From positions 744,001-808,000 of the forward strand of contig NZ_JAUSUZ010000001.1 of the NCBI RefSeq assembly GCF_030813715.1: a stretch of DNA of 64,000 bases. Direction: 5' to 3'. The stretch is from Catenuloplanes indicus. GTDB lineage: Bacteria > Actinomycetota > Actinomycetes > Mycobacteriales > Micromonosporaceae. The position numbers and the translations under genes were made by a program. The notes under the pieces are model-generated. The model worked only from the letters and a program-made list of their open reading frames with translations. It was not told the DNA's origin and searched no databases. Of the stretch, positions 6,658 to 27,578 are shown in pieces; the first letter of the stretch is position 1; each line of letters begins with the position of its first letter.

Positions 6658-7968
6658 TCACCCGGCCGGGGCCGGCACCGCGTCGGGCAGGTCGTCGGCG
6701 CGGCGTAGCGTCCGGGAGGCGGCGGTGATCGCGGCGAGCAGGACCATCGCGGTGCCGCTGACCACGAACAGCAGCGCGATCCCGCGGCCCGGGCCGGTGC
6801 CGATCACCTCGCCGGCCGTGTTCGCGAGCGCGCCGCCCGGGGCCATCAGGGGCTCCGCGACCGCGTCCGCGAGCGGGCCGGCCAGCAGGTAGGCGAGCGG
6901 GACCGCGGCGTCACCGATCACCCGGGCCGCGGCCATCACCCGGCCGAGCACGGCGGGCTCGGTCTTGAGTTGCAGCAGCGTCATCGTGGAGCTGTTCACG
7001 ATCGGCAGCGTGAACAGGAACAGCGGCGCGACGACGCCGATCAGCCACGGTGACGGTGCGAGCGCATGCAGCGCGAGCGCGATACCGCCGCCGGCCAGGC
7101 CGCCGATCACGGCCCGGCTACGGCGGCGCGGACCGCCCCAGGCGCCCATCACGAGGCTGCCGGCGAACAGGCCCGCGCCGCCGGCGAACATCAGCACGCC
7201 GAGCGTGGCCGCGTCCGCGAACGACAGGATCAGCGGCTGGATCAGCACGCCCGCGATGCCGAACAGGAAGTTGAAGACACCGAACACGATCACCAGATGC
7301 AGCAGGCCGGGCCGGTCCCGCAGATGCCGCCAGCCCTCGGCGGCGCCGCCACGCGGCTGCTTCGCGGTGCCGTCCGCCGGTGGGCGGGTGACCGCGGCCG
7401 GGAGCCGGACCAGGAACAGCGTGCCGGCCGCGATCGCGAACGTGAGCAGGTCGACGGTCAGCACACCGCCGATGCCGATCGTGACGACCAGCGCGCCCGC
7501 GATCAGCGGCGCCGCGATCTGCACGGCGCGGGAGATCTGCATGAAACCGTTGAACCGGGCCAGGTGCCGGGTGCCGACCAGCGCCGGGGTCATCGCCTGG
7601 TACGCGACCTGGTGCACGGTCGACGCACCCGCGGTCAGCGCGGTCGCCAGGTAGATGTGCCACACCGCCAGCTGGTCCGTGGCGACCAGCACGGCCAGCG
7701 CGGCCGTGCCCACCGCGGCCACGGTGTCCGCGCGCAGCATCAGTGTCCGCCGGTCGCCGGCGTCCGCGGCCGTGCCGGCCAGCGGGGCGACGAGCAGCGC
7801 CGGTACGGTCGCGGCCAGGAAGATCAGCGAGAACTGCAGCACGGAGCCGGTGCGCTGGTAGACCCAGACGCCGAGGACGAACGCGGTGAGGCTGGAGCCG
7901 ACCAGCGACGCGAGCTGGCCGAGCCAGATCGCGACGAGCAGCCGGGTGGCGACGGGACGCTCAGTCAT
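6658..7968 (-). CDS. MFS exporter (EntS/MFS_3-like)
   Basis: This 436-residue integral membrane protein has about twelve hydrophobic helices. Its N-terminal half reads 'FRLLVAIWLGQLASLVGSSLTAFVLG'-like family sequence, with the loop 'GTAADAGDRRTLM' after the second helix matching the DxxxRR loop of major facilitator proteins. It resembles the enterobactin-exporter branch often found beside NRPS genes. Its start overlaps the end of NRPS module 4 by eight bases, so it is cotranslated with it. Likely job: export of, or self-protection against, the peptide. Substrate is inferred from context only. Confidence 0.85.
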   Translation of the reverse strand: MTERPVATRLLVAIWLGQLASLVGSSLTAFVLGVWVYQRTGSVLQFSLIFLAATVPALLVAPLAGTAADAGDRRTLMLRADTVAAVGTAALAVLVATDQLAVWHIYLATALTAGASTVHQVAYQAMTPALVGTRHLARFNGFMQISRAVQIAAPLIAGALVVTIGIGGVLTVDLLTFAIAAGTLFLVRLPAAVTRPPADGTAKQPRGGAAEGWRHLRDRPGLLHLVIVFGVFNFLFGIAGVLIQPLILSFADAATLGVLMFAGGAGLFAGSLVMGAWGGPRRRSRAVIGGLAGGGIALALHALAPSPWLIGVVAPLFLFTLPIVNSSTMTLLQLKTEPAVLGRVMAAARVIGDAAVPLAYLLAGPLADAVAEPLMAPGGALANTAGEVIGTGPGRGIALLFVVSGTAMVLLAAITAASRTLRRADDLPDAVPAPAG

Positions 7969-12401: not shown

Positions 12402-15400
12402 TCATGGCTTCTCCTCCAGCATGCGGTGCAGTTCCTCGTCGGACAGGCCGGCCACCTCGAGGCGGACCGCGGCGACCGCGTGCAGGTGGCCGGGCTCGGG
12501 TTCGAACGCGGTCAGCGCGGACGCCATCGTGGCCACGGTCGGCGCCTCGAACAGCACCCGGATCGGCACGCTGATCCCGAAGGTGTCGGACGTGCGCGCG
12601 ACCACCTGCGCGCCGAGCAGCGAGTGGCCGCCGAGCCGGAAGAAGTCGTCGTGCGCGCCGACCGGGCCGCCGCGCAGCACGTCCTGCCAGATCCCGGCCA
12701 GAACCTGTTCCACCGGGGTACGCGGGGCGACCGCCGGCGCGGTCTGATCACCCCAGCGCGGTGCGGGCAGCGCGCCGCGGTCGACCTTGCCGTTCGCGTT
12801 CAGCGGCAACGCGGGCAGCACGTCCAGGTGCGACGGGACCATGTAGCCGGGCAGCCGCGCGGCCAGCACCGGGCGCAGCAGATCCGGCAACGTGGCCGGG
12901 TCGGCGCCGTCCGCGGCCACGATGTGCCCGGCGAGCCGGGTGTCGCCGTCGCCGCCGGTCCAGGCACCGACGACCGCGTCCGCGACCCGGGGGTCCGCGC
13001 GCAGCACGGCCTCGATCTCGCCGGGTTCGATCCGGAAGCCGCGCACCTTGATCTGGTGGTCGCCGCGGCCGAGGAACTCCAGCCGCCCGTCGGCGCGGCG
13101 GCGGGCCAGGTCGCCGGTGGCGTAGAGGCGGGCACCGGGCGTGTCGGCGTACGGGTCGGGCAGGAACCGGCGCGCGGTCAGCCCGGCGCGGCCGTGGTAG
13201 CCGCGCACCACACCGGTGCCGCCGATGTAGATCTCGCCGACCACGCCGGCCGGTACCGGTTGCAGCGCCTCGTCGAGCACGTAGACGCGGGTGTTCGCGA
13301 TCGGCGTGCCGAGCCCGATCGGCGCCGGTGCGGGCGGCACGGCCCCGGCCGCGGACCAGACCGTGGTCTCGGTCGGGCCGTAGCAGTTCCACAGCCGGGC
13401 GTCGCCGGTCAGCAGCCGGTCGGCCAGGTCGCGGGGCAGCACCTCGCCGCCGCAGAGCCGCAGCCGCAACCGGTCCGGCACGCCACCGGACGCGAGCAGC
13501 AGCCGCCAGGTGGCCGGCGTGGCCTGCATCGCGGTCGCGCCGGACGACTCCAGCCGGGCCCGCAGCGCGGCGCCGTCACCGGCCTCGGCCGCGCCGACGA
13601 TCTCCAGCCGGATGCCGCGGACCAGCGGGACCAGCAGCTCCAGCACGGAGATGTCGAACGACAGCGTGGTGACGGCCGCGAACACGTCACCGTCACCGAG
13701 ATCGAGGTCGTCGTGGAACGACGCGACCAGGTTGACCACGGCCCGGTGCGGCACGGCCACGCCCTTCGGCCGCCCGGTCGACCCGGACGTGTAGATCAGA
13801 TACGCGAGCCCGTCCGGATGCACCGGCTGCCGCTCCGGCGCCACCGCCGGGAGGTCCGCGTCGATCAGCACGGTCGGCGCGGTCGCCAGCACGTCGCCCA
13901 GCCGGGCCGCCACGGACGCGTCGGTGAGCACCACCCGCGTGCCGGAGTCGGTGAGCATGTACCGCAGCCGGTCCTCCGGCAGTTCCGGGTCCAGCGGCAG
14001 GTATCCGGCGCCGGCCCACCACACGCCGAGCACGGCCGCGAGCATCCCGGTGCCGCGCGTCATGCACAGCCCGACCGGCGTGTCCGCGGTGACGCCGGCG
14101 TCGCGCAGCCGGGCCGCGATCCGCCCGGCGCGCTCCAGCAGCGCGGCGGTGTCCCGCGTGCCGTCCGGCCCGGTGACGGTGGCACCGGCGACCGGGTCGA
14201 TCAGGCCGAGCACGGAGCCGTCCGGCGGCGTACCCCGGTCGGTGTCGTTCCAGCCGGTCAGCACCTCCCACCGTTCCGCGCCGCGCAGCAGCGGGATCAG
14301 GTGCAGCGGCCGGTCCGGTGCGGCGACGCCCGCGGTGAGCAGCGTGCTCAGGTGCCGGGTGAGCCGGTCGATCGTGGACGCGTCGAACAGGTCGGTGTCG
14401 TACTCGACGGCCAGCCGCAGCCCGCCGGACGGCGTGGCCTCGCCGACCAGGGTCAGGTCGAACTTGGCGGTGCCGGTGTCCAGCTCCAGCGACGTCGCGG
14501 CCGTGTCGCCGAGCCGGAACGGCGCGTGCGGCGCGTTCTGCAGGATCAGCTGTGCCTGGAACACCGGCGTGTGCGCGAGGCTGCGCTCCGGCTGCAGTTC
14601 CTCGACCAGCCGTTCGAACGGCAGGTCCGCGTTGCCGAGCCCGTTCAGCGTGACCTCGCGGGCGCGGGCGGCCAGCGTGCGCAGCGACGGCCGGCCGACC
14701 GACGACAGCCGCAGCGCGACCGTGTTGACGAAGAACCCGACCAGCCCCTCCAGGTCCGGGTGGCCGCGCCCGGCGACCGGGGTGCCGATCACCACGTCGT
14801 CCTGGCCGGCGTGCCGGGCCAGCACGGTCTGGAACACGGCCAGCAGCGTCATGAACATGGTGACGCCGGTGTCCTGGTTGAACGCGGTGACCCGGTCGAC
14901 CAGCGCGGGCGGCAGCGTCAGGTAGTGCACGGCGCCGCGGTGCTCGCGGACCGCGGGCCGGTGCCGGTCGGTGGGCAACGTGAGCAGCGCCGGCGCGCCG
15001 CGCAGGTGGCCGAGCCAGTAGTCGAGCTGACCGGTGAGCAGGTCGCCGCCGAGCTGCCCGCGCTGCCAGCGGGCGAAGTCCGCGTACTGCACCGGCAGCG
15101 GCGGCAGCGCCGGGTCGCGGCCGTCCCGCGCGGCCGTGTACGCGGCGTTCAGCTCGGTGAACAGCACGCCGAGCGACCAGGCGTCCGAGATGATGTGGTG
15201 CAGCACCAGTGTGAGCACGTGCTCGTCCGGGCCGAGCCGGATCAGCGCGGCGCGCAGCAGCGGCCCGGTGGCCAGGTCGAACGGCCGCCGCCCGAACTCG
15301 GCCGCGAGCGCCCGGCCCTCGACGCGGGTGCCACCGGACGCGTCGGCGATCTCCAGTTCCACCGGCAGGGCCGGGTGCACGATCTGCACCACCTCGCCAC

Positions 15401-15701
15401 CGGACTCCGCGAACGTGGTCCGCAGCGTCTCGTGCCGCGCGACCACGGTGGACAGCGCGGCGCGCAGCGCGGCCGGGTCGACCGGTCCGCGCAGGTGGAA
15501 CGCGACCGGGATGTGGTAGACCGCGGTACCGCCGGCGAACCGGTCCAGGAACCACAGCCGCTGCTGCCCGAACGAGGCCGGGTGGGTACGCGGCGCCCGC
15601 GCCCGCTCGGTCAGCAGCCGGGCCAGCAACGCCCGCTTACCCTCACGCGGCACATCCGATCGCGGCGCATCCGATCGCGGCGCCGGGGATTCGGTGCTCA
15701 T
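12402..15701 (-). CDS. NRPS module 3: C-A-PCP
   Basis: This 1099-residue protein (start ATG overlapping the upstream stop as TGATG) has a Ser/Pro/Arg-rich N-terminal tail at residues 1-25. The condensation domain follows at about 40-470, with HHIISDA at 168-174. The adenylation domain is at about 490-990 (YTSGSTGRPKGV, FDISVLE, NCYGPTETTVW, GFRIEPGEIE). The carrier domain is FFRLGGHSLL, and a short acidic/hydrophobic C-terminal tail ending LHRMLEEKP may be a docking helix. Reading the pocket by eye gives D-I-L-Q-L-G-C-V-W-K, close to the glycine code I remember (D-I-L-Q-L-G-L-I-W-K), so glycine is a tentative substrate. There is no epimerase or methyltransferase domain. A 46-base gap separates it from module 4. 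Confidence 0.92.
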   Translation of the reverse strand: MSTESPAPRSDAPRSDVPREGKRALLARLLTERARAPRTHPASFGQQRLWFLDRFAGGTAVYHIPVAFHLRGPVDPAALRAALSTVVARHETLRTTFAESGGEVVQIVHPALPVELEIADASGGTRVEGRALAAEFGRRPFDLATGPLLRAALIRLGPDEHVLTLVLHHIISDAWSLGVLFTELNAAYTAARDGRDPALPPLPVQYADFARWQRGQLGGDLLTGQLDYWLGHLRGAPALLTLPTDRHRPAVREHRGAVHYLTLPPALVDRVTAFNQDTGVTMFMTLLAVFQTVLARHAGQDDVVIGTPVAGRGHPDLEGLVGFFVNTVALRLSSVGRPSLRTLAARAREVTLNGLGNADLPFERLVEELQPERSLAHTPVFQAQLILQNAPHAPFRLGDTAATSLELDTGTAKFDLTLVGEATPSGGLRLAVEYDTDLFDASTIDRLTRHLSTLLTAGVAAPDRPLHLIPLLRGAERWEVLTGWNDTDRGTPPDGSVLGLIDPVAGATVTGPDGTRDTAALLERAGRIAARLRDAGVTADTPVGLCMTRGTGMLAAVLGVWWAGAGYLPLDPELPEDRLRYMLTDSGTRVVLTDASVAARLGDVLATAPTVLIDADLPAVAPERQPVHPDGLAYLIYTSGSTGRPKGVAVPHRAVVNLVASFHDDLDLGDGDVFAAVTTLSFDISVLELLVPLVRGIRLEIVGAAEAGDGAALRARLESSGATAMQATPATWRLLLASGGVPDRLRLRLCGGEVLPRDLADRLLTGDARLWNCYGPTETTVWSAAGAVPPAPAPIGLGTPIANTRVYVLDEALQPVPAGVVGEIYIGGTGVVRGYHGRAGLTARRFLPDPYADTPGARLYATGDLARRRADGRLEFLGRGDHQIKVRGFRIEPGEIEAVLRADPRVADAVVGAWTGGDGDTRLAGHIVAADGADPATLPDLLRPVLAARLPGYMVPSHLDVLPALPLNANGKVDRGALPAPRWGDQTAPAVAPRTPVEQVLAGIWQDVLRGGPVGAHDDFFRLGGHSLLGAQVVARTSDTFGISVPIRVLFEAPTVATMASALTAFEPEPGHLHAVAAVRLEVAGLSDEELHRMLEEKP

Positions 15702-16399
15702 CAGGCCTCCTGGATCTGTGCGGGCAGGTCGAGCCCGAAGCGGGTGGCGGCGGCCGCGACCTGCCGGCGCAGCGCCACCGGGCCATTGCCGGAGAAGCGG
15801 CTCAGGTACGCGCCGAGCGTCACCGGGTCGTCGGCGAGGAACGGGAAGTCGCTGGGCACCATGTGCCGGATCGCCAGCAGCGGCACCGGGCTGTGCAGCG
15901 GCCGGAAGTCCGGGTTCCACAGCCCGCCCTTGGCCGGTGGCCCGTCGTGGAACTCGCCGATCATCAAGCCGCGCTCGGTGTACGCGGCCTTGAGCCGGGC
16001 CTGCGCGCTGTCCACCTGCACCCGGGCGATCTCGTCCGGCAGGTCGGGCAGCGTGAGCAGGATCGTCTTGAACTGGGCGGCCGGGCCGTGCGCGGGTTCC
16101 AGCGCGGTGAACCAGTCCCGGTACCCGGCCAGCAGCGCGTCCAGGTCGTCCGGGTCGAGCGTGTCGCCCCGGTGCACCGCCAGGTAGAACACGCCGCGGT
16201 CCAGCGAGCCCTGCACGAACGGGCACACCGGTCCCTTCCGGCCGAGGTCCGGGTGCGGCCCGCAGAGGTAGTGCTGTGCCCAGGCGAGCACCTCGAGCAG
16301 CCGGCCGGTGACGCCGGCGACGAGCGGGTGCGGCAGTTCGGCGTGCAGGTCGGCCGCGTCGAACAGCACCTGGCCGGGGAATCCGGGGCGGGTCAGCAT
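15701..16399 (-). CDS. Conserved protein of unknown function in the NRPS operon (possibly DUF6875)
   Basis: The 232-residue protein starts at the ATG giving MLTRPGFPGQ, overlapping the end of the flavoenzyme gene by seven bases, and its stop overlaps the start of NRPS module 3. It is soluble with no signal peptide. Conserved-looking blocks are 'GRKGPVCPFVQGSL' near residues 63-76, a 'MIGEFHDGPP' block, and 'GLWNPDFRPLHSPVPLLAIRHM...DFPFL'. I associate these with a domain of unknown function (from memory DUF6875, not verified). The tight packing between the flavoenzyme and an NRPS gene implies a role in making or delivering the unusual building block. No catalytic residues can be named. Confidence 0.65.
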   Translation of the reverse strand: MLTRPGFPGQVLFDAADLHAELPHPLVAGVTGRLLEVLAWAQHYLCGPHPDLGRKGPVCPFVQGSLDRGVFYLAVHRGDTLDPDDLDALLAGYRDWFTALEPAHGPAAQFKTILLTLPDLPDEIARVQVDSAQARLKAAYTERGLMIGEFHDGPPAKGGLWNPDFRPLHSPVPLLAIRHMVPSDFPFLADDPVTLGAYLSRFSGNGPVALRRQVAAAATRFGLDLPAQIQEA

Positions 16400-17724
16400 G
16401 CCCGCCCCCGCAGGGAGAGACGGGCGGCCAGCACGGCGACGGCGGTACCCACGGTCACGGCCGCGGCGAGCGCCCGGCGCTGGCGGCGTACCCGGGCGAG
16501 CGCGTCCGCGTACGGCGTGGTGGTGTGCGCGACCAGCGTGTAGAGCGGCACCCAGCGGTGCGGCAGCAGCCGGGACAGCGCCCGGTCCGCGGCCGCGGCC
16601 AGCACGTACCCGGGCCGGTGCACGCGTGCCCGCAGCTCGGTGAAGTTCGCGGCGGACAGGTCGGCGAGCACGTCGGTGTGCGGGCGGCGCGCGGCCTCGT
16701 ACGCGGCCAGCGCGGTCCCCCGGTCCGGGTGCCGGCCCAGGCAGGCGTCCAGCACCAGGCAGTCCTCGAACGCCGCGTTCATCCCCTGCCCGAAGAACGG
16801 GTAGACCGCGTGCGCCGCGTCGCCGACCAGCACCACCCGGTCCTCGTGCCGCCACGGCGCCGTGCGCACGGTGACGAGCCGGCCGACCGGGTGGGCCAGC
16901 AGCTCGTCGGCCAGGTCCGGCATCAGCTCGCGCGCGTCCGGGAACGCGGCGTCGGCGAACGCGTGGATCGCGGCCCGGTCACGCAGCGCCGCGAAGCTGA
17001 CCGGCCCCTCGTGCGCCATGAACAGCGAGCAGGTCAGCGAGCCGTCCCGGTTGGGGTGCGCGACCATCAGCGCGTCCTCGCCCGGCCAGACGTGCAGCGC
17101 CTCGAGGCGCACCCGGGGCACGCCGCCGGGGCCGGCCGGGATGGTCAGCTCGGTGTAGCCCCACGGCAGGAACTCCTGCGCGTAGTCGGCGCGCAGCCCG
17201 TGCTGCAGGTGGCGGCGCGCGGCGGAGAACACGCCGTCCGCGCCGACGATCAGGTCGGCCTCGACGGTCTCGGCCGGATCGGCGACCTCCACCGTGCCCT
17301 TGTCCCGGTCCAGACCGGTCAGCGTCCGTCCGAAGTGGAAGCTGACGTCCGGGTGCGCGGACGCGGTGTCGACGAGCAGCCGGAGCAGGTCGTCGCGAAG
17401 GACCGAGTGCAGGATCTCGTGCTCGCGCACACCGTACGGCTGAAATCTGGTCGTGCCGTCGGGCCGGTGCACCACCCGGCCGCGCATCGGCACGCCGCGG
17501 GCGAGTACGGCGTCGAGCAGCCCGGCCTCGTCGAGCGCGGCCATGCCGCGCGCGGACAGCCCGAGGTTGATCGATCGGCCGGTGGCCGCGGTGCCGGCGG
17601 TGCGCGGGTCCGGCCGGCGTTCGTAGACGGACACGCGATACCCGCGGCGGGCGAGGAACACCGCGGTCAGCGAGCCGGCGAGCCCCGCGCCGACGACGAC
17701 CGCATGTTCCTGTGGGCCGGTCAT
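16393..17724 (-). CDS. FAD monooxygenase, kynurenine 3-monooxygenase-like
   Basis: This 443-residue protein has the class-A flavoprotein hydroxylase layout. The ADP-binding GAGLAGSLTA is at residues 12-21. 'GRSINLGLSARG' and 'PMRGRVVH..DG...FQPYG' are hallmarks of kynurenine 3-monooxygenases. The DG motif is in 'VGADGVFSAARR', and the GD motif in 'VLVGDAAHAVYPFFGQGMNAAFED'. A C-terminal hydrophobic helix (about residues 415-435) matches the membrane tail of that family. The expected reaction is NADPH/O2-dependent ortho-hydroxylation of kynurenine or a related aromatic amine. No tryptophan dioxygenase, formamidase or kynureninase gene is in the window, so the substrate could be primary-metabolism kynurenine or a carrier-bound residue. 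Start ATG overlaps the NRPS module 2 stop (ATGA). Confidence 0.88.
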   Translation of the reverse strand: MTGPQEHAVVVGAGLAGSLTAVFLARRGYRVSVYERRPDPRTAGTAATGRSINLGLSARGMAALDEAGLLDAVLARGVPMRGRVVHRPDGTTRFQPYGVREHEILHSVLRDDLLRLLVDTASAHPDVSFHFGRTLTGLDRDKGTVEVADPAETVEADLIVGADGVFSAARRHLQHGLRADYAQEFLPWGYTELTIPAGPGGVPRVRLEALHVWPGEDALMVAHPNRDGSLTCSLFMAHEGPVSFAALRDRAAIHAFADAAFPDARELMPDLADELLAHPVGRLVTVRTAPWRHEDRVVLVGDAAHAVYPFFGQGMNAAFEDCLVLDACLGRHPDRGTALAAYEAARRPHTDVLADLSAANFTELRARVHRPGYVLAAAADRALSRLLPHRWVPLYTLVAHTTTPYADALARVRRQRRALAAAVTVGTAVAVLAARLSLRGRAC

Positions 17725-20700
17725 GACTCCTCCTCCGAGGTCAGTGCGTCCAGCAGCGCGTCGATCTCGGCGTCGGAGAGCGAGTCGAGCGAGTCCGGAA
17801 GCCGGTCCGGCGCCGGTCGTGCCGGGCCGGTGTGCGGTGATGCCGGGCGGGTGGCCCGGTCGAGCAGCGGTGCGAGCTCGGCGACGGTCGGCGCCGCGAA
17901 CAGGTCGCGCAGCGTGACGTCCGCGCCGAACGCGGTACGGATCCGGGCGATCAGCCGGGCCGCGTTGAGCGAGTGCCCGCCGAGCGCGAAGAAGTTGTCG
18001 TGGACGCCGACCTCGGGCAGGTTCAGCACCTCGCGCCAGAGCGCGGAGAGCTCCGACTCCACCGGGGTACGGGCGAGCACGGCCGGTGTCGCGGTCGTCT
18101 CCCGCCAGGACGGCTCGGGCAGCGCCGCCCGGTCGGCCTTGCCGCTCGCGGTGCGCGGCAGCGCGTCCAGCACCACCAGCGCGGCCGGGATCATGTAGTC
18201 CGGCAGCCGCGCCGCGAGCCCGGAGCGCAGCTGCGGCCAGAGCCCGGCCGCGCTCCGCTCGCCGGTGGTGACGACGTAGGCGGCGAGCCGGCCGCCGTCC
18301 CGCGCGGTCACCACCGCCTCGGCGACGGCGGGGTGCTCGCGCAGCAGCGTCTCGATCTCACCCGGCTCGATCCGGAAGCCGCGCACCTTCAGCTGGGCGT
18401 CGGCGCGGCCGAGGAAGTCGAGCGTGCCGTCGGCCCGCCATCGCCCGAGGTCCCCGGTCGCGTAGAGCCGGCCACCCGCACGGTACGGGTCCGGCCGGAA
18501 CCGGGCCGCGGTCGCACCGGGCTGCCCGAGGTAGCCGCGCGCCACGCCCGGCCCGCCGATGTGCAGCTCGCCGACCACCCCCTCAGGCACCGGCCGCCCG
18601 GCCGCGTCGAGCAGGTACACGGTCGTGTTCGGCGTCGGCCGGCCCAGGCTGACCGGCCCGTCCGGGCCGGCCGGTCCCGCGGTGGAGTAGACCGTGGTCT
18701 CCGACGGCCCGTACCCGTTGATCACCGTGCCGCCGTCGCGGAGCCGGTCGGCCAGGTCCCGGGAGAGCGCCTCGCCGCCGCTGATCCGCAACCGCACCCC
18801 CGCGGGTACGCCACCGGCGGTGACCAGCATCCGCCAGGTCGCCGGCGTGCCCTGCGCGACGGTGACGCGCCGGCCGGCGAGCGCGGCCCGCAGCAGCGCG
18901 GCATCCCGGGCGGTGTCCGCGTCGATCATCTCGATTCGCGCACCGGCCAGCAGCGGCAGCACCAGCTCGACGACGGAGATGTCGAACGCGTGCGTGGTCA
19001 CGGCCGCGACCCGGTCCGCCGCGGTCAGCCCGAGCACCGCGTGGAAGCCGGCGAGCAGGTCGGTGACGGCCGCGTGCGGCACCGCGACGCCCTTCGGCCG
19101 GCCGGTCGACCCGGACGTGTAGAGCAGGTAGGCCAGCGCGTCCGGGTGCGTCTCCACCGGCGGTGGCGCGGACGCGGGGAACCGGTCCAGATCGGCGGTG
19201 TCCACCCGTACGACGGTCGATCGTGGATCGTCGAACGGCGCGTCGGTGAGCACGACCGGTGGGCGGGCGTCGGCCAGCATGGTGGCGATCCGGGCCGGTG
19301 GCAGGCCCGGGTCGAGCGGCAGGTAGCCGGCACCGGCCCGCCAGACCGCCAGGATCGCCGCGACCAGCCACGTGCTGCGGCCCAGCGCCAGCCCGACCGG
19401 CGTGTCCGGCCCGGCGCCGTGCGCGTGCAGCAGGTGCGCGAGCCGGTTCGCCCGCGCGTCCAGCTCCCGGTAGCTGAGCCGGCCGTCCGGCCCGGACACC
19501 GCGATCGCGTCCCCGGTCAGCCGGGTCAGGTCCGCCACCGCCGGCAGCGGGTCCCCCGTGCCGTACCCGCGCAGCCGTTCCCGGTCCCCGGGTCGCAGCA
19601 TCGGCAGCGTGGCGACCGGGGTCCCCGGCCGGTCCAGGCCCGCCTCCAGCAGCGCCAGGTACTGCCCGGTCAGCGCGCGGACGCGCGTCTCGTCGAACAG
19701 CCCCGACCGGTACGTGACGCGCAGCCGCAGCCGGTCCGCGCGCTCCTCCACGGTGAGCGTGAGGTCGAACTTGACGGTGCCGTTCTCCCACAGCTCCGGC
19801 GTGATGGTCAGCCCGGCCGCGGTCCGCGGCGGCGGCGCCTCCTCCAGCGCGAACATCACCTGCACCAGCGGCGGGTGGGAGAGGCTGCGCGGCACCGCGA
19901 GCCGCTCCACGACCTGCTCGAACGGCGCCTCCTGCCGGGTCTGTGCGGCCGCGACCGAGTCCTGCGCCGCGGTCACCAGCTGCCCGAACGTGACGCCTTC
20001 CGGGAACACGGCGCGCAGCGCGAGCGTGTTCGCGAAGAAGCCGACCACGTCCCGGGTCTGCGGCCGGGTGCGGGCCGCGACCGGCAGCCCGACCAGCAGG
20101 TCGTCCTGGCCGGTGAGCCGGTGCAGCAGCGCCTGGAAACCGGCCAGCAGCAGCGTGCTCCTCCCCCGGTGGAGCCGCGCGGTCAGCTCCGCCGGCACGT
20201 CGCAGGTGACCGTGCCGCCGGCGTCGTCCTGTTCGGGCGGGCGCGGCCGGTCGGCGGGCAGGTCGAGCAGCACCGGGGCGCCGGCGAGCGCGCGGTGCCA
20301 GTGGTCCAGGTCGTCGTCGAACGCGCCGCGCGCGGCCTGCTCGCGCTGCCAGATCGCGAAGTCGCCGTACTGCATCGGCGCGTCCGGCAGTGCCTCGCCC
20401 GCGTACGCCGCGGCCAGCTCGCCGAAGAGCACGCCGAACGACCAGCCGTCCGCGACCGCGTGGTGCACCACCCAGACCAGCGCGTGCGAGCCGTCCGGCC
20501 GGCGCAGCAGCGTGAACCGGTTCAGCGGGCCGGCGGCCAGGTCGAACGGGCGGCGGGCCGCCTCGTTGACGTGCCGCCGCCAGTCGTCGCCGGTCTCGAC
20601 CGGGTGCAGCCGGACCGGGCCGGCCGGCGCGACCACCTGGGCCGGTTCGCCGTCCACGGCCGTGAAGTGCGTGCGCAGGCTCTCGTGCCGGGCCACCAGC

Positions 20701-20855
20701 CGGGTCAGCGCGGCCTCCAGCGCCGGCCCGTCCAGCGGCCCGTCCAGGACCACGAGCCAGGCGATGTTGTACGTGGCGGAGCCCGGGCTCAGCTGGTCGA
20801 GCAGCCACAGCCGCCGCTGGGTGAGCGAGGCCGGCAGGAGATAGGTGTCGCTCAC
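17721..20855 (-). CDS. NRPS module 2: C-A-PCP
   Basis: This 1044-residue protein starts with a GTG that overlaps the stop of module 1 (GTGA). Condensation domain at about 5-440 with the classic HHAVADGWS at 131-139. Adenylation domain at about 460-900 (YTSGSTGRPKGV, AFDISVVE, NGYGPSETTVY, GFRIEPGEIE). Carrier domain FFALGGHSLN with Ser near 962. The tail rich in Ser/Asp/Leu (SLSDAEIDALLDAL) looks like a docking or recognition helix. The pocket reads by eye D-I-V-Q-I-G-G-V-Y-K, which I cannot match to a known amino acid; an aromatic non-proteinogenic substrate such as a kynurenine is possible but unsupported. Order on the transcript makes it the second extension step. Confidence 0.92.
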   Translation of the reverse strand: MSDTYLLPASLTQRRLWLLDQLSPGSATYNIAWLVVLDGPLDGPALEAALTRLVARHESLRTHFTAVDGEPAQVVAPAGPVRLHPVETGDDWRRHVNEAARRPFDLAAGPLNRFTLLRRPDGSHALVWVVHHAVADGWSFGVLFGELAAAYAGEALPDAPMQYGDFAIWQREQAARGAFDDDLDHWHRALAGAPVLLDLPADRPRPPEQDDAGGTVTCDVPAELTARLHRGRSTLLLAGFQALLHRLTGQDDLLVGLPVAARTRPQTRDVVGFFANTLALRAVFPEGVTFGQLVTAAQDSVAAAQTRQEAPFEQVVERLAVPRSLSHPPLVQVMFALEEAPPPRTAAGLTITPELWENGTVKFDLTLTVEERADRLRLRVTYRSGLFDETRVRALTGQYLALLEAGLDRPGTPVATLPMLRPGDRERLRGYGTGDPLPAVADLTRLTGDAIAVSGPDGRLSYRELDARANRLAHLLHAHGAGPDTPVGLALGRSTWLVAAILAVWRAGAGYLPLDPGLPPARIATMLADARPPVVLTDAPFDDPRSTVVRVDTADLDRFPASAPPPVETHPDALAYLLYTSGSTGRPKGVAVPHAAVTDLLAGFHAVLGLTAADRVAAVTTHAFDISVVELVLPLLAGARIEMIDADTARDAALLRAALAGRRVTVAQGTPATWRMLVTAGGVPAGVRLRISGGEALSRDLADRLRDGGTVINGYGPSETTVYSTAGPAGPDGPVSLGRPTPNTTVYLLDAAGRPVPEGVVGELHIGGPGVARGYLGQPGATAARFRPDPYRAGGRLYATGDLGRWRADGTLDFLGRADAQLKVRGFRIEPGEIETLLREHPAVAEAVVTARDGGRLAAYVVTTGERSAAGLWPQLRSGLAARLPDYMIPAALVVLDALPRTASGKADRAALPEPSWRETTATPAVLARTPVESELSALWREVLNLPEVGVHDNFFALGGHSLNAARLIARIRTAFGADVTLRDLFAAPTVAELAPLLDRATRPASPHTGPARPAPDRLPDSLDSLSDAEIDALLDALTSEEES

Positions 20856-23800
20856 GCGATGTCCCTTCGGGTGTCGACGGCGACCAGGCGCAGCTCGGCG
20901 GTGTGCCGGCGGCCGTCGGCGCCGGTCAGCCAGGTCTGGTCCGGGCCGGGCAGCATCTCGCTGAGCTTCAGGCGCGCGTCCGGCCCGGCGCGGCGGACCG
21001 CGCGGGCGAACACGTCCACCGACGCGAGACCGGCCAGATCGAGGTGGAACGGCTTCTTCTCGGCCGGTGACACGACGAAGACGTGCCGGGGCAGCCGATG
21101 CGCGCGCTGCCAGGCACGCGCCCGCCGGAACCGTTCGGCCTCGTCCGGCACGTGCACGAAGTCCAGGCCCGCGGCCGGGAACGTCCACGACTCCCGCGAC
21201 CAGACCACCCGGTCGACCGTCACCCGCGGCCGGTGGTCCGCCGCGGGCAGCACGTCGAAGCGCTGCAGCAGTTGCAGCATCACCGGCTCGCCGATCACCT
21301 CGGCCAGCGGCATCCGGTGCCGCCCGTCCCGGCTGGCCACGGTCAGCACGCCGCCGTCGTCGCGCAGCACGCAGTCCGCGACCGGCAGCGCGGTCGCCGG
21401 GTCCAGGCCGCCGCTGTCGTGCCCGAACACGATCCGCAGGTCGCGGCCGGTGATCAGGCCGTCGGTGATCCGGGCCGGGGCGCCGCCCTCCTCGCCGGTC
21501 GCGGCCAGCACGATCCGGCGGCGCGGCAGGTCGGCCAGCATCGCGGCGCGCAGCGCGTCCGGGTCCGGGTGCTGAGCGACGAACAGCGCGGACCGCAGCG
21601 TGTTCACGCCCGGGTGCACCTCGCCGACCACCCAGTGGAAGTCGCCGCGCCGGACCGCGTCCGGGCCGTCCGCGGCCAGCATCACGTCCGGGCTGTGCTG
21701 GTGCGCGCCGGACCAGCCGGGCCGCGGTGCCGCGAACCGTCGCCGGACCGCGTCGGCGAGCGCGGCCGAGTCCGCGGTGATCCGGTTCCCGTCCGCCGCG
21801 GGCAGGATCTGCGACCAGCGCTCGCGCAGGCCGCGCACGACCGGGCCGATCAGGCGTTCCGGCGCGTCGAACAGCACGTCGTTGGCCCAGAGCCAGAAGT
21901 CCGCGAACGGTACGCCGGGCGAGCCGGTGCGGGCGGCCAGCTCGCGGTAGCGGTCCGCGCAGGCCCGGTGGAACAGCGCGGCCCCGGCGAACGTGAACCA
22001 GCGCGCACTGGTCAGCAGCAGGCTCAGCGACGGCCAGAGCGTGCCCATCAGCTCGGTCGACAGCGTCACGCCGGTGCCGGAGCGGCAGTCCTCGTAGACC
22101 ACGGTCCGCCCGGCGTAGGCCTTCCCGGCGCGGCGGGTGGCGGCCGTACCGGTGAGGCCGGTGAAGGTCTGTTCGAGGCGGGTGACGGCCGCGTCGAGGC
22201 GGTCCGGGTCACCGGCCGCGGCGGCGACCGCGTCCCGGGCCGTCTCCAGGCGGTCGAGCGCGGCGAGCGCCCGCGCGCGGGCCCCGGCGTCGCCGACCGC
22301 GGTGAGGCGGGTGCGGAGCACGCGTTCCGGGAACACGTCCTCCTTGGGCACCTCGAACGACCACGAGATCCGGCGCGCGTCGCGCAGCGTGGCCAGCCGG
22401 TGGAACACGTCGTCCGGGTCCGCGCCGAGCGCGGCGGCGATCTCACCGGCGGTGCGGGTGCCGTCCGCGGCGCGCAGCAGCCGCGCGGTCTCCGGGTCGA
22501 GCGGCGTGGGCGGGGTGAGCGGCAGCAGCAGGTGGTCGCCGTCGACGCGCAGGAACGGCATCCGGCGCGGGATCAGCCACGGGCGCAAGCGGTCGTCGTC
22601 GGCGGCCAGCCGGCCGGCCAGTTCGGACACGGCCCAGTTCTCGAAATAGACGGTACGGGTGGCGAGCCCGCCCGGCCGCACCCGCAGCGCCGGGCCGGGA
22701 CCGCCGATCTCTGCCCAGCCGACCGGGCCGAAGAAGCCGATCGTGTCGTTCTTGCCGCAATACCGCTGCAGGTACGTGGCGACCAGCGCCTGATGCTGCC
22801 GGTACTGCGAGCCGGCCCCGCCGGGCTTCGCCACGTCCGCGACGCCGGTGTGCAGCGCGGCCCGGTTCTGCCAGGTGACGGCCTCCCGGAACCGCGGGTC
22901 GGCGGCGGCCCGGCGCAGCGCGTCCGTGCGACGCGCGGACGCGCGCTCGTAGGCGGCGGCGAAACGGTCCCGGGCGTCCTCGTGCGCGGCGTGCGCGGCG
23001 ACCGCGGCCGCGTGTGCCTCGGCCAGTTCGGCGCGGCCCGCCTCGCCGGACGGCGCGGGTCCGCCCGCCTCGGCGGCCCCGGCCGGAGACGGCGCCGGCA
23101 GCGGGGCCGGGGTGGCGTCCCGGCGGGCGTGGCGGGCGGCCCGGTTCCAGGGCCCGCGTGCGCCGGGCGGTGCGGCCGCGCGCGCGAGCTGCAGCAGGTG
23201 GCCGAGCGCGCGACGGGCGTCGTCGCATCGCTGTCCGGCCTCGTCCAGCGCGTCGGCGGCATCACCGAGCGCCGGATCGCCGAGCGCGGTCAGCGTGTCG
23301 ATCGGGAAGCCGGCCGCACGCAGCCCGGCCCACCGCCACAGCGCCCAGTCGCCGCCCGGCCGTACGAGATGCCCGCCGCCGCCGAGCTCGCGCCCGCCGT
23401 CCGCAGGCTTGCGCCCGCCGTCCGCAGGCTTGTGGTCCGACGCGGGTCCGACGTCGTCGCCCGGCGCGGGACGGTCCGCCGTGCGCGGGGCACCGCCTGC
23501 CACCGCGGGCGGCGACGCGAGCGTGACGCCACCCGCCGGACCCCACCGATCCACCGACGGTGTTCCGGCGTCGTCAACGGCGGCGCCGGATGCCGCCGGC
23601 CGGGCCGTCGCGGCCGGTGCGAGCCGGTACGCCGTGCGGTCGCGGGCAACCGGACCGTCCACATCCGACCGCGGCAGTGCGGCGATCGTGGCGGCGATGT
23701 CGCGCAGCGCCGGTGTGTCGAAGACGGCGCGGACCGGCAGGTCGACGTGGAACGTGTCCGCGACCGCGAACGTGAGCCGGGTCGCGAGCAGCGAGTTGCC

Positions 23801-26800
23801 GCCCTGCGCGAAGAAGTCGTCGTCCCGGCCGGCCGCCGGCACGCCCAGCAGGTCACGCCAGAGCGCGGCCAGCCGGGTCTCCACGTCACCGCGCGGCGCA
23901 CCGCCGGACGAGGCCGCGGGCGGTGCGGGCAGCGCCCGGCGGTCGAGCTTGCCGGCCGGGGTCAGCGGCAGCGCGGGCAGCCGGACCAGCGCGGCCGGGC
24001 GCAGATACGCGGGCAGGTGCCGGCCGGCGAAACCGGGAAGATCATCCACCGGTACGCCGTCGCGGGCACAGTAGTAGCCGACCAGCCGCCGCCGTTCGCC
24101 GGTGCCGTCGACGACCACGGCGGCGTCGGTGACCGCGGGATGGCGGCGCAGCACCGCGGCGGCCTCGCCCGGCTCGACCCGGAAACCGCGGATCTTCACC
24201 TGGTCGTCGGCGCGGCCGAGGAACTCCAGCGTGCCGTCCTCGCGGACGCGGGCCCGGTCACCGGTGCGGTACATCCGCGCGCCCGGCACCGCGCTGAACG
24301 GATCCGGCAGGAACACCCGCGCGGTCGCGGCCGGCCGCCCGAGGTAGCCGCGGGCCAGCCCGGCCCCGCCGGTGTAGAGGTCACCGGCCGTCCCGGCCGG
24401 GACCGGGCGCAGCGCGGCGTCCAGCAGGTACACGCCGGTGCCGGGCACCGGACAGCCGATCGGTACCGGGTCGGGCACCTCGTCCGCGCCGGTCAGCACG
24501 TGCACGGTGGTGAACGTGGTGTTCTCCGTCGGGCCGTACCCGTTGATCAGGGGTTTGCCGTCGCGGGCGCGCAGCGCGCGGCGGACCGCGGCCGGGTCGA
24601 GCACGTCACCGCCGGCCAGCAGCTGCCCGACAGCGGCCAGGCCGTCCGGGGCCAGCTCGACGACCTGGTGGAACAGTCCCGCGGTCAGCCAGAGCACGCT
24701 GATCCGCTCGCGGCGCACCACGTCCGCGACCTCGGCCGGGCCGAGCGGGCCGGGTGGCGCGACCACCAGCGTGGCGCCGGACGCGAGGCTGCCCCAGATC
24801 TCCAGCGTGGCCGCGTCGAACGCGACCGGCGCCAGGTGCAGCACCCGCTCGCCGGGCCCGAGCCGCAGGTAGCCGGGTTCGTGGACGAGCCGGACCACGG
24901 CCGAGTGCGGCACGCCGACCGCCTTCGGTGCGCCGGTCGAGCCGCTGGTGTGGCAGACGTAGGCGAGCCCGGCCGGGTGCGGCGCACGGGTGCGCGGCGG
25001 CGCGTCCGGCATCGACTCCGCGTTGATCGTGACCGGGTCGCCCGCCTGCGCCAGGATCGCGGCGGTGCGGTCCGGCGGGTCGGCCGGGTCGAGCGGAAGG
25101 TAACCGGCGCCGGCCCGGAGCACGCCGAGCAACGCGACGATCAGCGCGGCCGAGCGGGGCAGCGCGACCGCGACCGGCGTGTCCGGCCGCACCCCCGCGT
25201 CCAGCAGCCCGCCGGCCACGCGGTCCGCGCGTGCCAGCAGCTCGCGGTAGGTGAGCGTGCCGTCCGGCGCCACGACCGCGACCGCGTCCGGCCACGCCTC
25301 GGCCCGGGCCACGACCAGATCCACCACGGTACGGGTGGCGAGCGCGGCCGGCAGGCCCGGTCCGGACAGCACGGCGCCGCTCCGGCCGGCGGCATCGCCC
25401 GGCAGACCGCCGAGGCTGTCCCCGCCCCGCGGTTCGACCGGGCGGCCCGCGGTCGGCAGCTCGCCGCGGCCCGTGTCCGCGGGACCCTCCGGGGGCCTCA
25501 TGTCCGGCGGATCGTCGAGACGGCCCACGCCGGCCGGATCACCGAAGCCGCCCGCACCGGGATCATCACCGCGGCCGTTCACACCGGGCCCGTCGCCGAG
25601 CCGATCCGGATCGTCGGGACCACCCGGGTTCGGCGGTGCCACGCGGTGCGCGCCCGGAACGCCCGCCGGGCGGCTCTCGCCCGGCGCACCGGCGGGGCGA
25701 TCCGTGCCCGGCAGGTCGCGGACGTATCCGTCGAGGTGGGCCGGGAGGCCGGTGAGGATCGTGCCGAACAGGTGCAGCAGTGCGTCGGCCGCGGCCGGGG
25801 TGAGCCGGTGCTGATCGTGGTAGAGCAGCGCGTGCGGGCCCGGTTCGCCGAAGACGCACAGCGTGACCGGTGGGCCCGGGTGGCGGTGGACGCGGGCCCG
25901 CCGGCCGCCCCAGCCGGGCACGGCCGCGGCCAGCGAGCTCTGCAGGTTCCGGTGGTCGTACATCAGCAGCGTGTCGAACAGCGGCCGGTCGGCGGGTACG
26001 CCGCTCCACCGCTGGATCCGGTCGAGCGGGGTGAGCCGGTGGTCGTGCAGCCCGGCGACGCGCCGGCCGGTCTCGGTCAGCCAGTCACGGACCGGCAGGT
26101 CGGCGCGGACCGGCACGCGCAACGGCAACGTGTTGATCAGCAGGCCGATCATCCGGTCCGCGCCGTCGACGGTGTCCCGGCGGCAGGAGCGCACCGAGCC
26201 GAATACCACGTCGTCGCGGTCGGTGTGCTGCCGCAGCGTGGCCGCCCAGGCCGCGGTGACCAGCGTGTCCAGCGGCACGCCGGTCGCCCGCAGCGCACCG
26301 GCCTGCGCCGGGGTCAGTTCCAGCACGGTCTCCCGGACCGAGCCGGGCGTCCGGTCCGGCGCGCCGGCCGCGGGCGCGAGCACCGGCAGTGGCGTCGGCA
26401 GCGTCGCGCCGGCCAGGTGCGCGCGCCAGAACGGGCGGTCGCCGTTCTCCGGCCGGGACGCCACCCAGCGGGCGAAGTCGCGGTACGCGGGCCGGTCCGG
26501 CGCGGTGAACGGCCGGCCGGCCGCGAGCGCGTCGTGCTCGGCGAAGACCTCGGCGAGCAGGTGCCGGACGGACCGGCCGTCCAGGATGGCGTGGTGCAGC
26601 GTGATCGCGACGGTGTGCCGGCCGGGTCCGTGCGTGATCAGCGTGACGCGGGCCAGCGGCGGGTGCGCGTGGTCGAAGCCGGTGCCGCGGTCCGCGGCGA
26701 GGAACGCGGCCAGGTCCCGCTCCGGCGTGCCGGTCCAGTCGTGCAGTTCGACCGGCACCTCGGCGGACGGCCGGACCGCCTGGGTTGGCGGGGCGCCGGG

Positions 26801-27022
26801 CGGCCAGTCGAAGCCGGTGCGCAGCACCGGGTGCCGTGCGGCCGCGTGCCGCCACGCGGTGCGCATCGCGGCGGGATCGAGCCGGACCGGCCAGTCCACG
26901 ACGACCTGCAGCAGATCGACGCCGGAATGCCGCCGATGCCGCCCGAACAGCATTCCGGGTTGCAGCGTAACCGCTTCGTATCGTTCGTGACTTGCATTCT
27001 CCGACGGCCGGGCATGCACCAT
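20852..27022 (-). CDS. NRPS module 1 (C-A-PCP) fused to a LanB/PEARL-like lantibiotic dehydratase domain
   Basis: This 2056-residue protein is counted from the ATG giving MVHARPSENA, preceded by AAGGAG; GTG one codon later or ATG at 27034 are alternatives. Residues 15-440 are a condensation domain of 'QPGMLF' type with HHAILDG at 143-149. Residues 441-555 are a Gly/Pro/Asp linker. Residues 560-1035 are adenylation (CHTSGSTGAPKAV, FDAATLEIW, NGYGPTENTTF, GFRVEPGE); the pocket reads D-A-L-W-L-G-G-T-F-K, close to valine codes I remember. The carrier Ser is 1077 in FFAQGGNSLL. After a 100-residue repetitive linker, residues 1225-2045 match the lantibiotic dehydratase glutamylation region (WAGLRAAGFP, RYCGKNDTIGFFGP at 1420-1433, DFWLWANDVLFD, GEVHPGVNTL, RLPRHVF). 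No SpaB_C elimination domain is visible. There is no loading module, so the first residue may be N-acylated. Confidence 0.9.
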   Translation of the reverse strand: MVHARPSENASHERYEAVTLQPGMLFGRHRRHSGVDLLQVVVDWPVRLDPAAMRTAWRHAAARHPVLRTGFDWPPGAPPTQAVRPSAEVPVELHDWTGTPERDLAAFLAADRGTGFDHAHPPLARVTLITHGPGRHTVAITLHHAILDGRSVRHLLAEVFAEHDALAAGRPFTAPDRPAYRDFARWVASRPENGDRPFWRAHLAGATLPTPLPVLAPAAGAPDRTPGSVRETVLELTPAQAGALRATGVPLDTLVTAAWAATLRQHTDRDDVVFGSVRSCRRDTVDGADRMIGLLINTLPLRVPVRADLPVRDWLTETGRRVAGLHDHRLTPLDRIQRWSGVPADRPLFDTLLMYDHRNLQSSLAAAVPGWGGRRARVHRHPGPPVTLCVFGEPGPHALLYHDQHRLTPAAADALLHLFGTILTGLPAHLDGYVRDLPGTDRPAGAPGESRPAGVPGAHRVAPPNPGGPDDPDRLGDGPGVNGRGDDPGAGGFGDPAGVGRLDDPPDMRPPEGPADTGRGELPTAGRPVEPRGGDSLGGLPGDAAGRSGAVLSGPGLPAALATRTVVDLVVARAEAWPDAVAVVAPDGTLTYRELLARADRVAGGLLDAGVRPDTPVAVALPRSAALIVALLGVLRAGAGYLPLDPADPPDRTAAILAQAGDPVTINAESMPDAPPRTRAPHPAGLAYVCHTSGSTGAPKAVGVPHSAVVRLVHEPGYLRLGPGERVLHLAPVAFDAATLEIWGSLASGATLVVAPPGPLGPAEVADVVRRERISVLWLTAGLFHQVVELAPDGLAAVGQLLAGGDVLDPAAVRRALRARDGKPLINGYGPTENTTFTTVHVLTGADEVPDPVPIGCPVPGTGVYLLDAALRPVPAGTAGDLYTGGAGLARGYLGRPAATARVFLPDPFSAVPGARMYRTGDRARVREDGTLEFLGRADDQVKIRGFRVEPGEAAAVLRRHPAVTDAAVVVDGTGERRRLVGYYCARDGVPVDDLPGFAGRHLPAYLRPAALVRLPALPLTPAGKLDRRALPAPPAASSGGAPRGDVETRLAALWRDLLGVPAAGRDDDFFAQGGNSLLATRLTFAVADTFHVDLPVRAVFDTPALRDIAATIAALPRSDVDGPVARDRTAYRLAPAATARPAASGAAVDDAGTPSVDRWGPAGGVTLASPPAVAGGAPRTADRPAPGDDVGPASDHKPADGGRKPADGGRELGGGGHLVRPGGDWALWRWAGLRAAGFPIDTLTALGDPALGDAADALDEAGQRCDDARRALGHLLQLARAAAPPGARGPWNRAARHARRDATPAPLPAPSPAGAAEAGGPAPSGEAGRAELAEAHAAAVAAHAAHEDARDRFAAAYERASARRTDALRRAAADPRFREAVTWQNRAALHTGVADVAKPGGAGSQYRQHQALVATYLQRYCGKNDTIGFFGPVGWAEIGGPGPALRVRPGGLATRTVYFENWAVSELAGRLAADDDRLRPWLIPRRMPFLRVDGDHLLLPLTPPTPLDPETARLLRAADGTRTAGEIAAALGADPDDVFHRLATLRDARRISWSFEVPKEDVFPERVLRTRLTAVGDAGARARALAALDRLETARDAVAAAAGDPDRLDAAVTRLEQTFTGLTGTAATRRAGKAYAGRTVVYEDCRSGTGVTLSTELMGTLWPSLSLLLTSARWFTFAGAALFHRACADRYRELAARTGSPGVPFADFWLWANDVLFDAPERLIGPVVRGLRERWSQILPAADGNRITADSAALADAVRRRFAAPRPGWSGAHQHSPDVMLAADGPDAVRRGDFHWVVGEVHPGVNTLRSALFVAQHPDPDALRAAMLADLPRRRIVLAATGEEGGAPARITDGLITGRDLRIVFGHDSGGLDPATALPVADCVLRDDGGVLTVASRDGRHRMPLAEVIGEPVMLQLLQRFDVLPAADHRPRVTVDRVVWSRESWTFPAAGLDFVHVPDEAERFRRARAWQRAHRLPRHVFVVSPAEKKPFHLDLAGLASVDVFARAVRRAGPDARLKLSEMLPGPDQTWLTGADGRRHTAELRLVAVDTRRDIA
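23391..23432. repeat. Perfect 2 x 21-bp tandem repeat in the PCP-LanB linker
   Basis: The 21-bp unit CGCCCGCCGTCCGCAGGCTT plus G occurs twice without mismatch and encodes repeated KPADGGR in the linker between the carrier protein and the LanB-like domain. Perfect identity suggests a recent duplication. Confidence 0.9.
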
Positions 27023-27365: not shown

Positions 27366-27578
27366 ATGGACACGGAAGGTATTGACGGCCGAATTTATGA
27401 CGTAGTGATGAACGACGAGGAGCAATACTCGGTGTGGCCGCACGGGACGCCCGCGCCGGCCGGCTGGCACGGCACCGGCTTCAGCGGCGACGAGGCGGCC
27501 TGCCTGGCCCACATCGACGAGGTCTGGACCGACCTGCGCCCCCGGGGTCTGCGCGAGTGGCTGGCCGCCCGGTCCTGA
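27366..27578 (+). CDS. MbtH-like NRPS accessory protein
   Basis: This 70-residue protein matches the MbtH family in length and motif order: NDEEQYSVWP, then PAGWHGTGFSG, then CLAHIDEVWTDLRP and a final LREWLA. These small proteins bind adenylation domains and are needed for folding or activity of many actinobacterial NRPSs. The start is the only ATG that gives the family N-terminus. Unusually it is divergent from the NRPS genes rather than inside their operon, and sits behind a TATAAC box only 10 bases from the ATG. It is followed by a strong hairpin at 27599-27624. It most likely serves all four A domains here. Confidence 0.95.
   Translation: MDTEGIDGRIYDVVMNDEEQYSVWPHGTPAPAGWHGTGFSGDEAACLAHIDEVWTDLRPRGLREWLAARS

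Follow-up and report, generated by a model that had tools for sequence, protein, structure and literature searches.

How might peptide bonds formed from aminoacyl-tRNA and from carrier-bound thioesters come to be made by one polypeptide? The question is raised by a gene of Catenuloplanes indicus (assembly GCF_030813715.1) lying in a stretch of 64,000 nucleotides, hereafter the window (contig NZ_JAUSUZ010000001.1, positions 744,001 to 808,000), which codes for a module of a non-ribosomal peptide synthetase (NRPS) followed by a domain of the lantibiotic dehydratase (LanB) family. The one studied NRPS case that we found to bring tRNA-based and thioester-based peptide-bond formation together has a separate enzyme acting after a ureido-forming condensation domain (Curea); here both routes would be united in one polypeptide, in several actinobacterial genera and mostly without a ureido-forming domain. 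The reading we favour, and hold to be reasonably probable, is that the C-terminal 830 residues are an ATP- and aminoacyl-tRNA-dependent amide ligase of the peptide aminoacyl-tRNA ligase (PEARL) type, tethered to NRPS module 1 and extending the chain bound to its thiolation (T) domain.

An NRPS module and a LanB-type domain in one open frame

The preliminary description of the window had proposed the one-gene fusion of an NRPS module to a LanB-like domain without stating the strand. This proposal was borne out: the gene runs on the minus strand from 27022 to 20852, from ATG to TGA and with no internal stop codon, and comprises condensation (C), adenylation (A) and T domains upstream of the LanB-type domain.

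20852..27022, minus strand: fused gene, C1-A1-T1-linker-LanB/PEARL-like domain, 2056 amino acids (single open frame, Pfam)
25706..27007, minus strand: C1 domain with motif TLHHAILDGRS (Pfam PF00668, residues 14-359)
23918..25342, minus strand: A1 domain, AMP-binding and C-terminal domains, with specificity residues DALWLAGTFK (Pfam PF00501, residues about 560-1030)
23684..23875, minus strand: T1 domain (peptidyl carrier protein, PCP) with motif FAQGGNSLLA (Pfam PF00550, residues 1050-1113)
20855..23350, minus strand: domain of LanB glutamylation fold, PEARL-like, residues 1225-2056 (PF04738, AlphaFold2, Foldseek)

Pfam matches and motif reading show a C-A-T elongation module with intact core motifs, and a linker of about 110 residues separates T1 from Lant_dehydr_N; the four motifs quoted in the preliminary description are all found in the translation. 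The exact start is uncertain because AGGAG precedes both the ATG (by 3 nt) and the following codon, GTG (by 6 nt). Third-position GC content is 0.82-0.99 in each 100-codon block of the gene (57 codons in the last), linker included, and since it is high in every block there is no sign of a hidden frameshift. A frameshift or assembly artefact concealing two separate genes, an outcome the preliminary description had allowed for, was ruled out by this codon periodicity together with the intact fusion in 9/9 orthologous clusters; among the 75 named loci introduced below, L102 alone is broken.

Residues 1225-2056 in isolation matched the lantibiotic dehydratase N-terminal family (PF04738, Lant_dehydr_N) with 95 bits, and the whole fused protein did so in two stretches (E 1.8e-25, 89.6 bits, cut-off 28). 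The AlphaFold2 prediction of these residues, made from 54 sequences, has a mean predicted local distance difference test score of 93.2 and a predicted template modelling (TM) score of 0.91. Foldseek matched the predicted fold to 11 PDB chains at E<=0.001, all of LanB type: TbtB, MibB, GodF, MadB and NisB, the last being the comparison suggested in the preliminary description. The best match was TbtB (E 5.5e-25, TM 0.64/0.66, 19% identity). The C-terminal domain of the fused protein is a member of the LanB glutamylation-domain fold family.

In sequence searches of the PDB, phmmer with the single domain gave no match up to E 10, a profile of eight rows gave PqqD alone (E 0.027) and a profile of 54 rows gave TbtB (E 1.1e-15). 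NCBIfam held no match to the domain up to E 0.01, PADLOC returned nothing for it and the viral contigs searched held no match. A winged helix resembling PqqD and the recognition elements (RREs) of ribosomal peptide pathways seems to be kept at profile positions 248-318 of the 54-row alignment A3 (5sxy, a weak match at E 0.0027). With no known leader peptide, what this part of the domain recognises might be the carrier.

Candidate ATP- and tRNA-site residues

The preliminary description had read the domain as LanB/PEARL-like, of the lantibiotic-dehydratase kind. Alignment A3 consists of the window domain together with 53 segments out of 102 candidates; its rows come from Actinomycetota, Acidobacteriota, Myxococcota, Cyanobacteriota, Chloroflexota and others, and 29 full LanB dehydratases (30 loci, L014 being left out) served as the comparison set. 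PEARL residues were mapped by order, motif and spacing only. Asp555, Glu577, His579, Glu819 and Arg821 in domain numbering, equivalent to Asp1779, Glu1801, His1803, Glu2043 and Arg2045 of the protein, are each invariant in the 54 rows, window included. The proposed counterparts are as follows.

21686..21688, minus strand: Asp1779, for TglB Asp542 at the ATP site (54/54 rows)
21614..21622, minus strand: Glu1801-Val-His1803, for TglB Glu564 and the conserved PEARL His (54/54 rows)
20888..20896, minus strand: Glu2043-Leu-Arg2045, for TglB Glu801-x-Arg803 (54/54 rows)
22763..22765, minus strand: Arg1420, for BhaBCTrp Arg208 at the tRNA CCA end (54/54 rows, 29/29 full LanBs)

According to the available text of PMC11117183, the ATP site of TglB is made of Asp542, Glu801 and Arg803; Glu801 has a counterpart in the dehydratase TbtB, and in split LanBs Tyr takes the place of the Asp and Leu that of the Arg. 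The 22 residues between Asp1779 and Glu1801 equal the distance between positions 542 and 564 of TglB. HHalign placed the last residues about three positions out of register, with Pro in the Arg2045 column of 27/29 full LanBs, and the LanB tails were compared by motif; a first pattern matched 18/29, and all 29 were then read by eye. The Glu is kept in 29/29 tails, which read E-x-L, V, I, A or T, and E-x-R occurs in none (0/29). The columns of Glu1801 and His1803 likewise contain no Glu (0/29) and no His (0/29) in these dehydratases. BhaBCTrp Arg208 is described as contacting the tRNA CCA end in the accessible part of PMC11962472. The putative CCA-binding residues (Tyr in 51/54 rows, Arg in 54/54) are also present in 29/29 dehydratases and hence are not PEARL-specific.

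The elimination domain PF14028 was found neither in the fused protein nor in its cluster; the two matches in the genome both lie at 3.999-4.002 Mb, adjoining the genome's other, full LanB at 3.997 Mb, more than 3 Mb from the window cluster. Because the cluster is devoid of an elimination domain and the PEARL residues are present in 54/54 rows, the domain is probably no dehydratase, and judging from these residues we are fairly confident that it is a ligase of PEARL type. The dehydratase side of the preliminary description was thus not supported. A class I lanthipeptide dehydratase was rejected on the same grounds, PF14028 being absent and Arg2045 occupying a position where 29/29 full LanBs have Leu, Val, Ile, Ala or Thr.

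A clade of fused domains and its partner C domain

The 75 named loci derive from the best 80 of 281 relatives, with flanks of at most 10 kb and some contigs cut; a T domain and a LanB-type domain share one frame in 16 of them. A single clade of the LanB tree unites 28 fused rows with one stand-alone row, L089 (support 100/99), which L115 and L122 adjoin (98/98). A long-branched Chromobacterium row, L169, also joined the fused side in a tree made by a quick method and was left out of the main tree.

The C domains were surveyed as 162 hits of >=330 residues with an HH...D motif, a biased count in that all come from LanB-chosen loci or from the window, and 83 of them were placed in a tree. There, the C1 domains of 22 fused chains group as a clade of their own (99/94), adjoined by the C domains of L115 and L122 (100/95). 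L115 and L122 thus supply the sister rows in both trees, of the C1 clade in this one and of the fused LanB clade in the other. Six Curea domains are separate from the C1 clade and are grouped less firmly (85/95). The motif HH..[LI]DGRS was found in 25/162 C domains: 22 in a LanB chain, one in the broken L102 chain and two in a gene beside a stand-alone LanB. In a less biased survey, of 121 genomes of the family, the matches listed include 11 places (the window's C1 counted) that score above 230 bits against C1, and 10/11 continue into a LanB-type domain in the same chain. Of three places checked from 190 bits down, L208 and L210 show no LanB, and L209 is a 4.4 kb contig from which one cannot tell.

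Three layouts were distinguished. Type 1 is that of the window and its orthologues. Type 2 (C1-A-T-LanB in other clusters) was found in L083, L107, L110, L111 and L207, as well as in L108 and L109, which are cut at a contig end. Type 3 (A-T-C-A-T-LanB) was found in L078, L081 and L113, where the C domain reads EHHF[IV]HDG; Curea is thus present in these sister loci. L084 and L113 have an identical LanB sequence and were counted once. The Curea-bearing chains are nested among the C1-bearing chains (100/100, 98/96, 100/98), also in the quick-method tree, so the same A-T-PEARL unit has come into use behind C1 and behind A-T-Curea. Most fused domains whose first C domain is in view sit behind the C1 clade, which is without the ureido signature. 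Since the A-T-PEARL unit is common to both kinds of chain, the simplest reading would be that the intermediate which C1 places on the T domain likewise has a free carboxylate.

The code of A1 was read by motif position, with GrsA numbering. DALWLAGTFK is shared by the window and nine orthologues (10/10) and by L097, L098 and L111, and seven Saccharothrix chains have DLLWLAGTFK. We take DALWLAGTFK to be an aliphatic, Val-like code, in which case the A1 residue would offer neither a hydroxyl group to dehydrate nor a side-chain carboxylate.

The two sister loci, L115 and L122, contain a stand-alone LanB in a locus of NRPS and polyketide synthase (PKS) genes; in L115 these code for C-T, a major facilitator superfamily (MFS) protein and ketosynthase-acyltransferase-T, and a divergent C-A-T has an A domain that matches Pfam only in its first third. 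The stand-alone row L089, which lies downstream of L069, groups within the fused clade as though it had separated from a fused gene.

The surrounding gene cluster

On the minus strand the fused gene is followed by genes for C-A-T, a flavin (FAD) monooxygenase, a DUF6875 protein, C-A-T, C-A-T-reductase, an MFS exporter and an O-methyltransferase; an MbtH gene is divergent.

17721..20855, minus strand: NRPS module 2, C-A-T (Pfam; start set by overlap with the upstream stop)
16393..17724, minus strand: FAD monooxygenase, similar to VioC and kynurenine monooxygenase (KMO) (PF01494; NCBIfam VioC E 2.3e-51, 175 bits, below its cut-off of 760)
15704..16399, minus strand: DUF6875 protein (PF21780, E 9.2e-66)
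12402..15701, minus strand: NRPS module 3, C-A-T (Pfam)
7961..12355, minus strand: NRPS module 4, C-A-T-reductase (Pfam PF07993; TIGR01746 above its cut-off)
6658..7968, minus strand: MFS exporter (PF07690)
5430..6653, minus strand: O-methyltransferase (PF00891)
27366..27578, plus strand: MbtH-like protein, divergent (PF03621)

Within the operon there is no room for a gene coding for a ribosomal precursor (carrier) peptide, as the genes overlap or lie <=46 nt apart. Proteins of the DUF6875 family are described in the available text of PMC13307353 as heme-binding and able to oxidise Trp, and for one of them, ZigI, the authors expect hydroxylation of Trp at C-7. Because of this described activity, the product likely carries a hydroxylated and methylated Trp-derived residue. 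The terminal reductase of module 4 suggests an aldehyde or alcohol end. Beside MbtH (window 27658-29822) lie genes for a cupin protein and for a GAF-LuxR regulator, both of which may regulate the cluster.

The gene order from the fused gene through to the methyltransferase recurs in at least nine more clusters, found in genomes of the same family and spread over six genus groups. The LanB-type domain lies in frame behind T1 in all nine that were fetched, and MbtH accompanies eight of them (upstream on the same strand in seven, divergent as in the window in L068) and was not found in L071. A tenth, divergent cluster, L205, possesses the fusion, the monooxygenase and the DUF6875 gene. To the extent of the fetched DNA, Micromonospora echinofusca L097 (cut at a contig end) and Salinispora pacifica L098, both among the 16 fusion loci, keep this order as well. 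Eight Saccharothrix loci (L099-L106) are among the fusion loci; in the L102 copy (Saccharothrix luteola) a break at about 9446-9999, either a sequencing error or a real split, separates A from T-LanB. The MFS gene comes directly after module 3 in 7/8 Saccharothrix loci, L104 ending before that point. A terminal reductase gave no match in the two Saccharothrix genomes searched (L100, L104), an empty search that shows little, and release may differ there. The monooxygenase and DUF6875 genes are both present in the 9/9 orthologous clusters and in L097-L106 (10/10); neither is in view in the type-2 clusters.

Other arrangements of LanB-type genes were noted. Two type-1 clusters, L069 and L070, have a second, stand-alone LanB after the methyltransferase (in L069, the downstream L089:4223-6640). 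A dissociated system, in which each carrier has two LanBs, is encoded in L004, L005 and many Streptomyces loci (e.g. L129 and L138): stand-alone LanBs occur there in pairs on either side of a free A domain, a small carrier protein and a pyridoxal phosphate (PLP) enzyme, the last annotated as such in L004 and L005. On a Kitasatospora plasmid (L172:10912-29173), three annotated LanB-like genes share a strand with several genes for large hypothetical proteins, and the stretch contains no annotated NRPS gene.

Proposed role of the domain and alternatives

From the computed fusion, fold, conserved candidate catalytic residues, lack of an elimination domain and clade structure we infer a chemistry that would act in cis on T1, through a free carboxylate supplied by a donor to C1, and would add one amino acid. 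More specifically, A1 would load an aliphatic amino acid on T1 and C1 would acylate it with a donor that leaves a free carboxylate facing away from the thioester. The LanB/PEARL domain would phosphorylate this carboxylate with ATP, the amine of an aminoacyl-tRNA would attack the activated carboxylate, and the tRNA would then be hydrolysed off. The chain would thereby gain one tRNA-derived residue in the direction opposite to that of the assembly line, and T1 would hand it to module 2 of the four-module NRPS. The placing of aminoacyl-tRNA chemistry on an NRPS, as inferred in the preliminary description, is in this respect supported at the level of sequence. Tentatively, the C1 clade (HH..[LI]DGRS) could represent a second, undescribed kind of chain-reversing C domain, which would obtain the free carboxylate from a soluble donor with no upstream A-T pair while the PEARL domain extends backwards in cis from aminoacyl-tRNA and the carrier keeps the thioester. 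At its boldest, the idea is that the ATP site of the PEARL domain would activate a carbamate on the T1-bound amino acid and make the urea with the aminoacyl-tRNA itself.

Several observations weigh against the proposed on-line ligation. The Curea signature EHHXXHDG is absent from all four C domains of the window (LHHAILDG, VHHAVADG, LHHIISDA and VHHIVADE), which leaves the free carboxylate unexplained, and no diacid-starter gene is found among the annotated cluster genes. With short flanks and cut contigs, Curea is in view in at least 3/75 named loci. The best PDB matches of C1, PvdL (E 6.9e-46) and McyB (4.6e-44), are close in score and speak neither for nor against a starter domain. At L206:6840-8678, a C1 relative of more than 230 bits stands beside MbtH with a short piece of an A domain and without LanB; L206 is perhaps the decayed remnant of a C1-LanB cluster. 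Among the candidate residues, the column of Asp1779 contains Asp in 0/29 full LanBs, but an acidic residue lies two columns earlier in 29/29 (Glu in 23, Asp in 6), and because the contrast with dehydratases depends on this register we do not lean on it. The acidic residues 558 and 575 of BhaBCTrp are 17 and not 22 positions apart (PMC11962472), and TglB Glu564 is reported as non-essential.

The same ligase chemistry could operate off the assembly line: the domain would amidate a side-chain carboxylate or the product after its release, and being fused would serve co-production only. Whether SnaE, a stand-alone homologue described below, acts on bound or free substrates is left open in the accessible part of PMC11212132, and the stand-alone LanBs of L069 and L070, the former inside the fused clade, would suit such a role; we nevertheless consider it unlikely, as the fusion point behind T1 is kept in 9/9 orthologues and the A-T-LanB unit is found behind two different types of C domain. 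A role on an oxidised indole is conceivable too: the monooxygenase and DUF6875 protein would make a hydroxyquinone, which the domain would aminate like BhaB5 and AmmB3. PEARLs are described as aminating hydroxyquinones as vinylogous carboxylates (PMC11117183), the Trp oxidation ascribed to DUF6875 proteins (PMC13307353) would fit, and both genes accompany the fusion throughout the orthologues, L097-L106 and L205. We give this explanation little credence, since type-2 and type-3 fused clusters show neither gene in the fetched stretch (short for some) and the fusion partner of the domain is module 1, with an A domain of aliphatic appearance.

On-line dehydration, in which the domain would use Glu-tRNA to glutamylate a T-bound Ser or Thr and leave the elimination to a second enzyme, agrees with the family name and with the fold that the domain shares with TbtB and NisB. 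It is very improbable in view of the PEARL E-x-R and E-x-H motifs, the lack of PF14028 in the cluster and the aliphatic A1 code. The PqqD-like stretch that seems to be retained (E 0.0027), in an operon with no room for a precursor gene, could finally speak for a catalytically dead domain that persists as a scaffold, for docking or of RRE-like kind; since the 54 rows show little or no variation at the candidate ATP- and tRNA-site residues, this is hardly credible. Ligation on T1 stands as the favoured reading. Being a single protein, the fusion lets one ask whether a PEARL acts on a carrier-bound substrate and what the first C domain makes for it. Ligation by the domain would also correct the annotation of such proteins as dehydratases, and product prediction could include a tRNA-derived residue.

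Comparison with known systems

We found no study of a fused LanB/PEARL, of the window cluster or of the C1 clade in the open literature, subscription papers being mostly outside its coverage. The preliminary description had rested novelty on the fusion and cited albopeptide as a precedent. According to the available text of PMC10880069, the dehydro-residues of albopeptide arise instead through a pair of dehydrating C domains, AlbB-C2 and AlbB-C3. Fused forms are already mentioned in the SnaE paper, which states that in some of these proteins a fusion to thiolation domains exists (PMC11212132), whereas the preprint names thioesterase or condensation domains as the partners (PMC10769383), each as far as its accessible text goes. 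The type of fusion alone is therefore not new; what is new, as read from the sequences, is that the fused domains fall in one clade, mostly with a private C-domain partner, and that a sub-group of A-T-Curea-A-T-LanB chains is nested within it.

The fold of the domain is common to TbtB and the class I LanBs, but the full LanBs lack the Arg of E-x-R (29/29) and need an elimination domain. The full LanB of the same genome shares PF04738, and PF14028 follows it, apparently in the same frame of 1099 residues. The PEARLs TglB, BhaBCTrp and AmmB, as described in the accessible parts of PMC11117183 and PMC11962472, resemble the domain in the candidate ATP-site Asp, Glu and Arg and CCA-site Tyr and Arg, by order, motif and spacing, and in having no elimination domain; they differ in working on ribosomal scaffold peptides, whereas here the domain is joined to a PCP.

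The closest comparison is SnaE, the stand-alone NRPS-linked homologue of the threopeptin pathway, which adds a Thr amide at the carboxylate freed when a ureido-forming C domain reverses the chain; its authors propose that such enzymes serve amide bonds out of reach of thioester chemistry (PMC11212132, available text). Because Curea is in view in few loci and 9/75 named loci have no NRPS domain within the fetched stretch, the published ureido partner logic is probably not general and may miss most LanBs considered here. Both SnaE and the window protein have a LanB glutamylation-like domain in an NRPS cluster, with no elimination domain and with MbtH nearby. As far as the accessible text allows the comparison, SnaE differs in being stand-alone and in receiving its substrate from a Curea domain (EHHXXHDG), a type missing from the window, and no PKS module or acyl-CoA dehydrogenase is found among the annotated genes of the window cluster. 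The type-3 chains, A-T-Curea-A-T-LanB, correspond to the parts of SnaA and SnaE joined in one protein.

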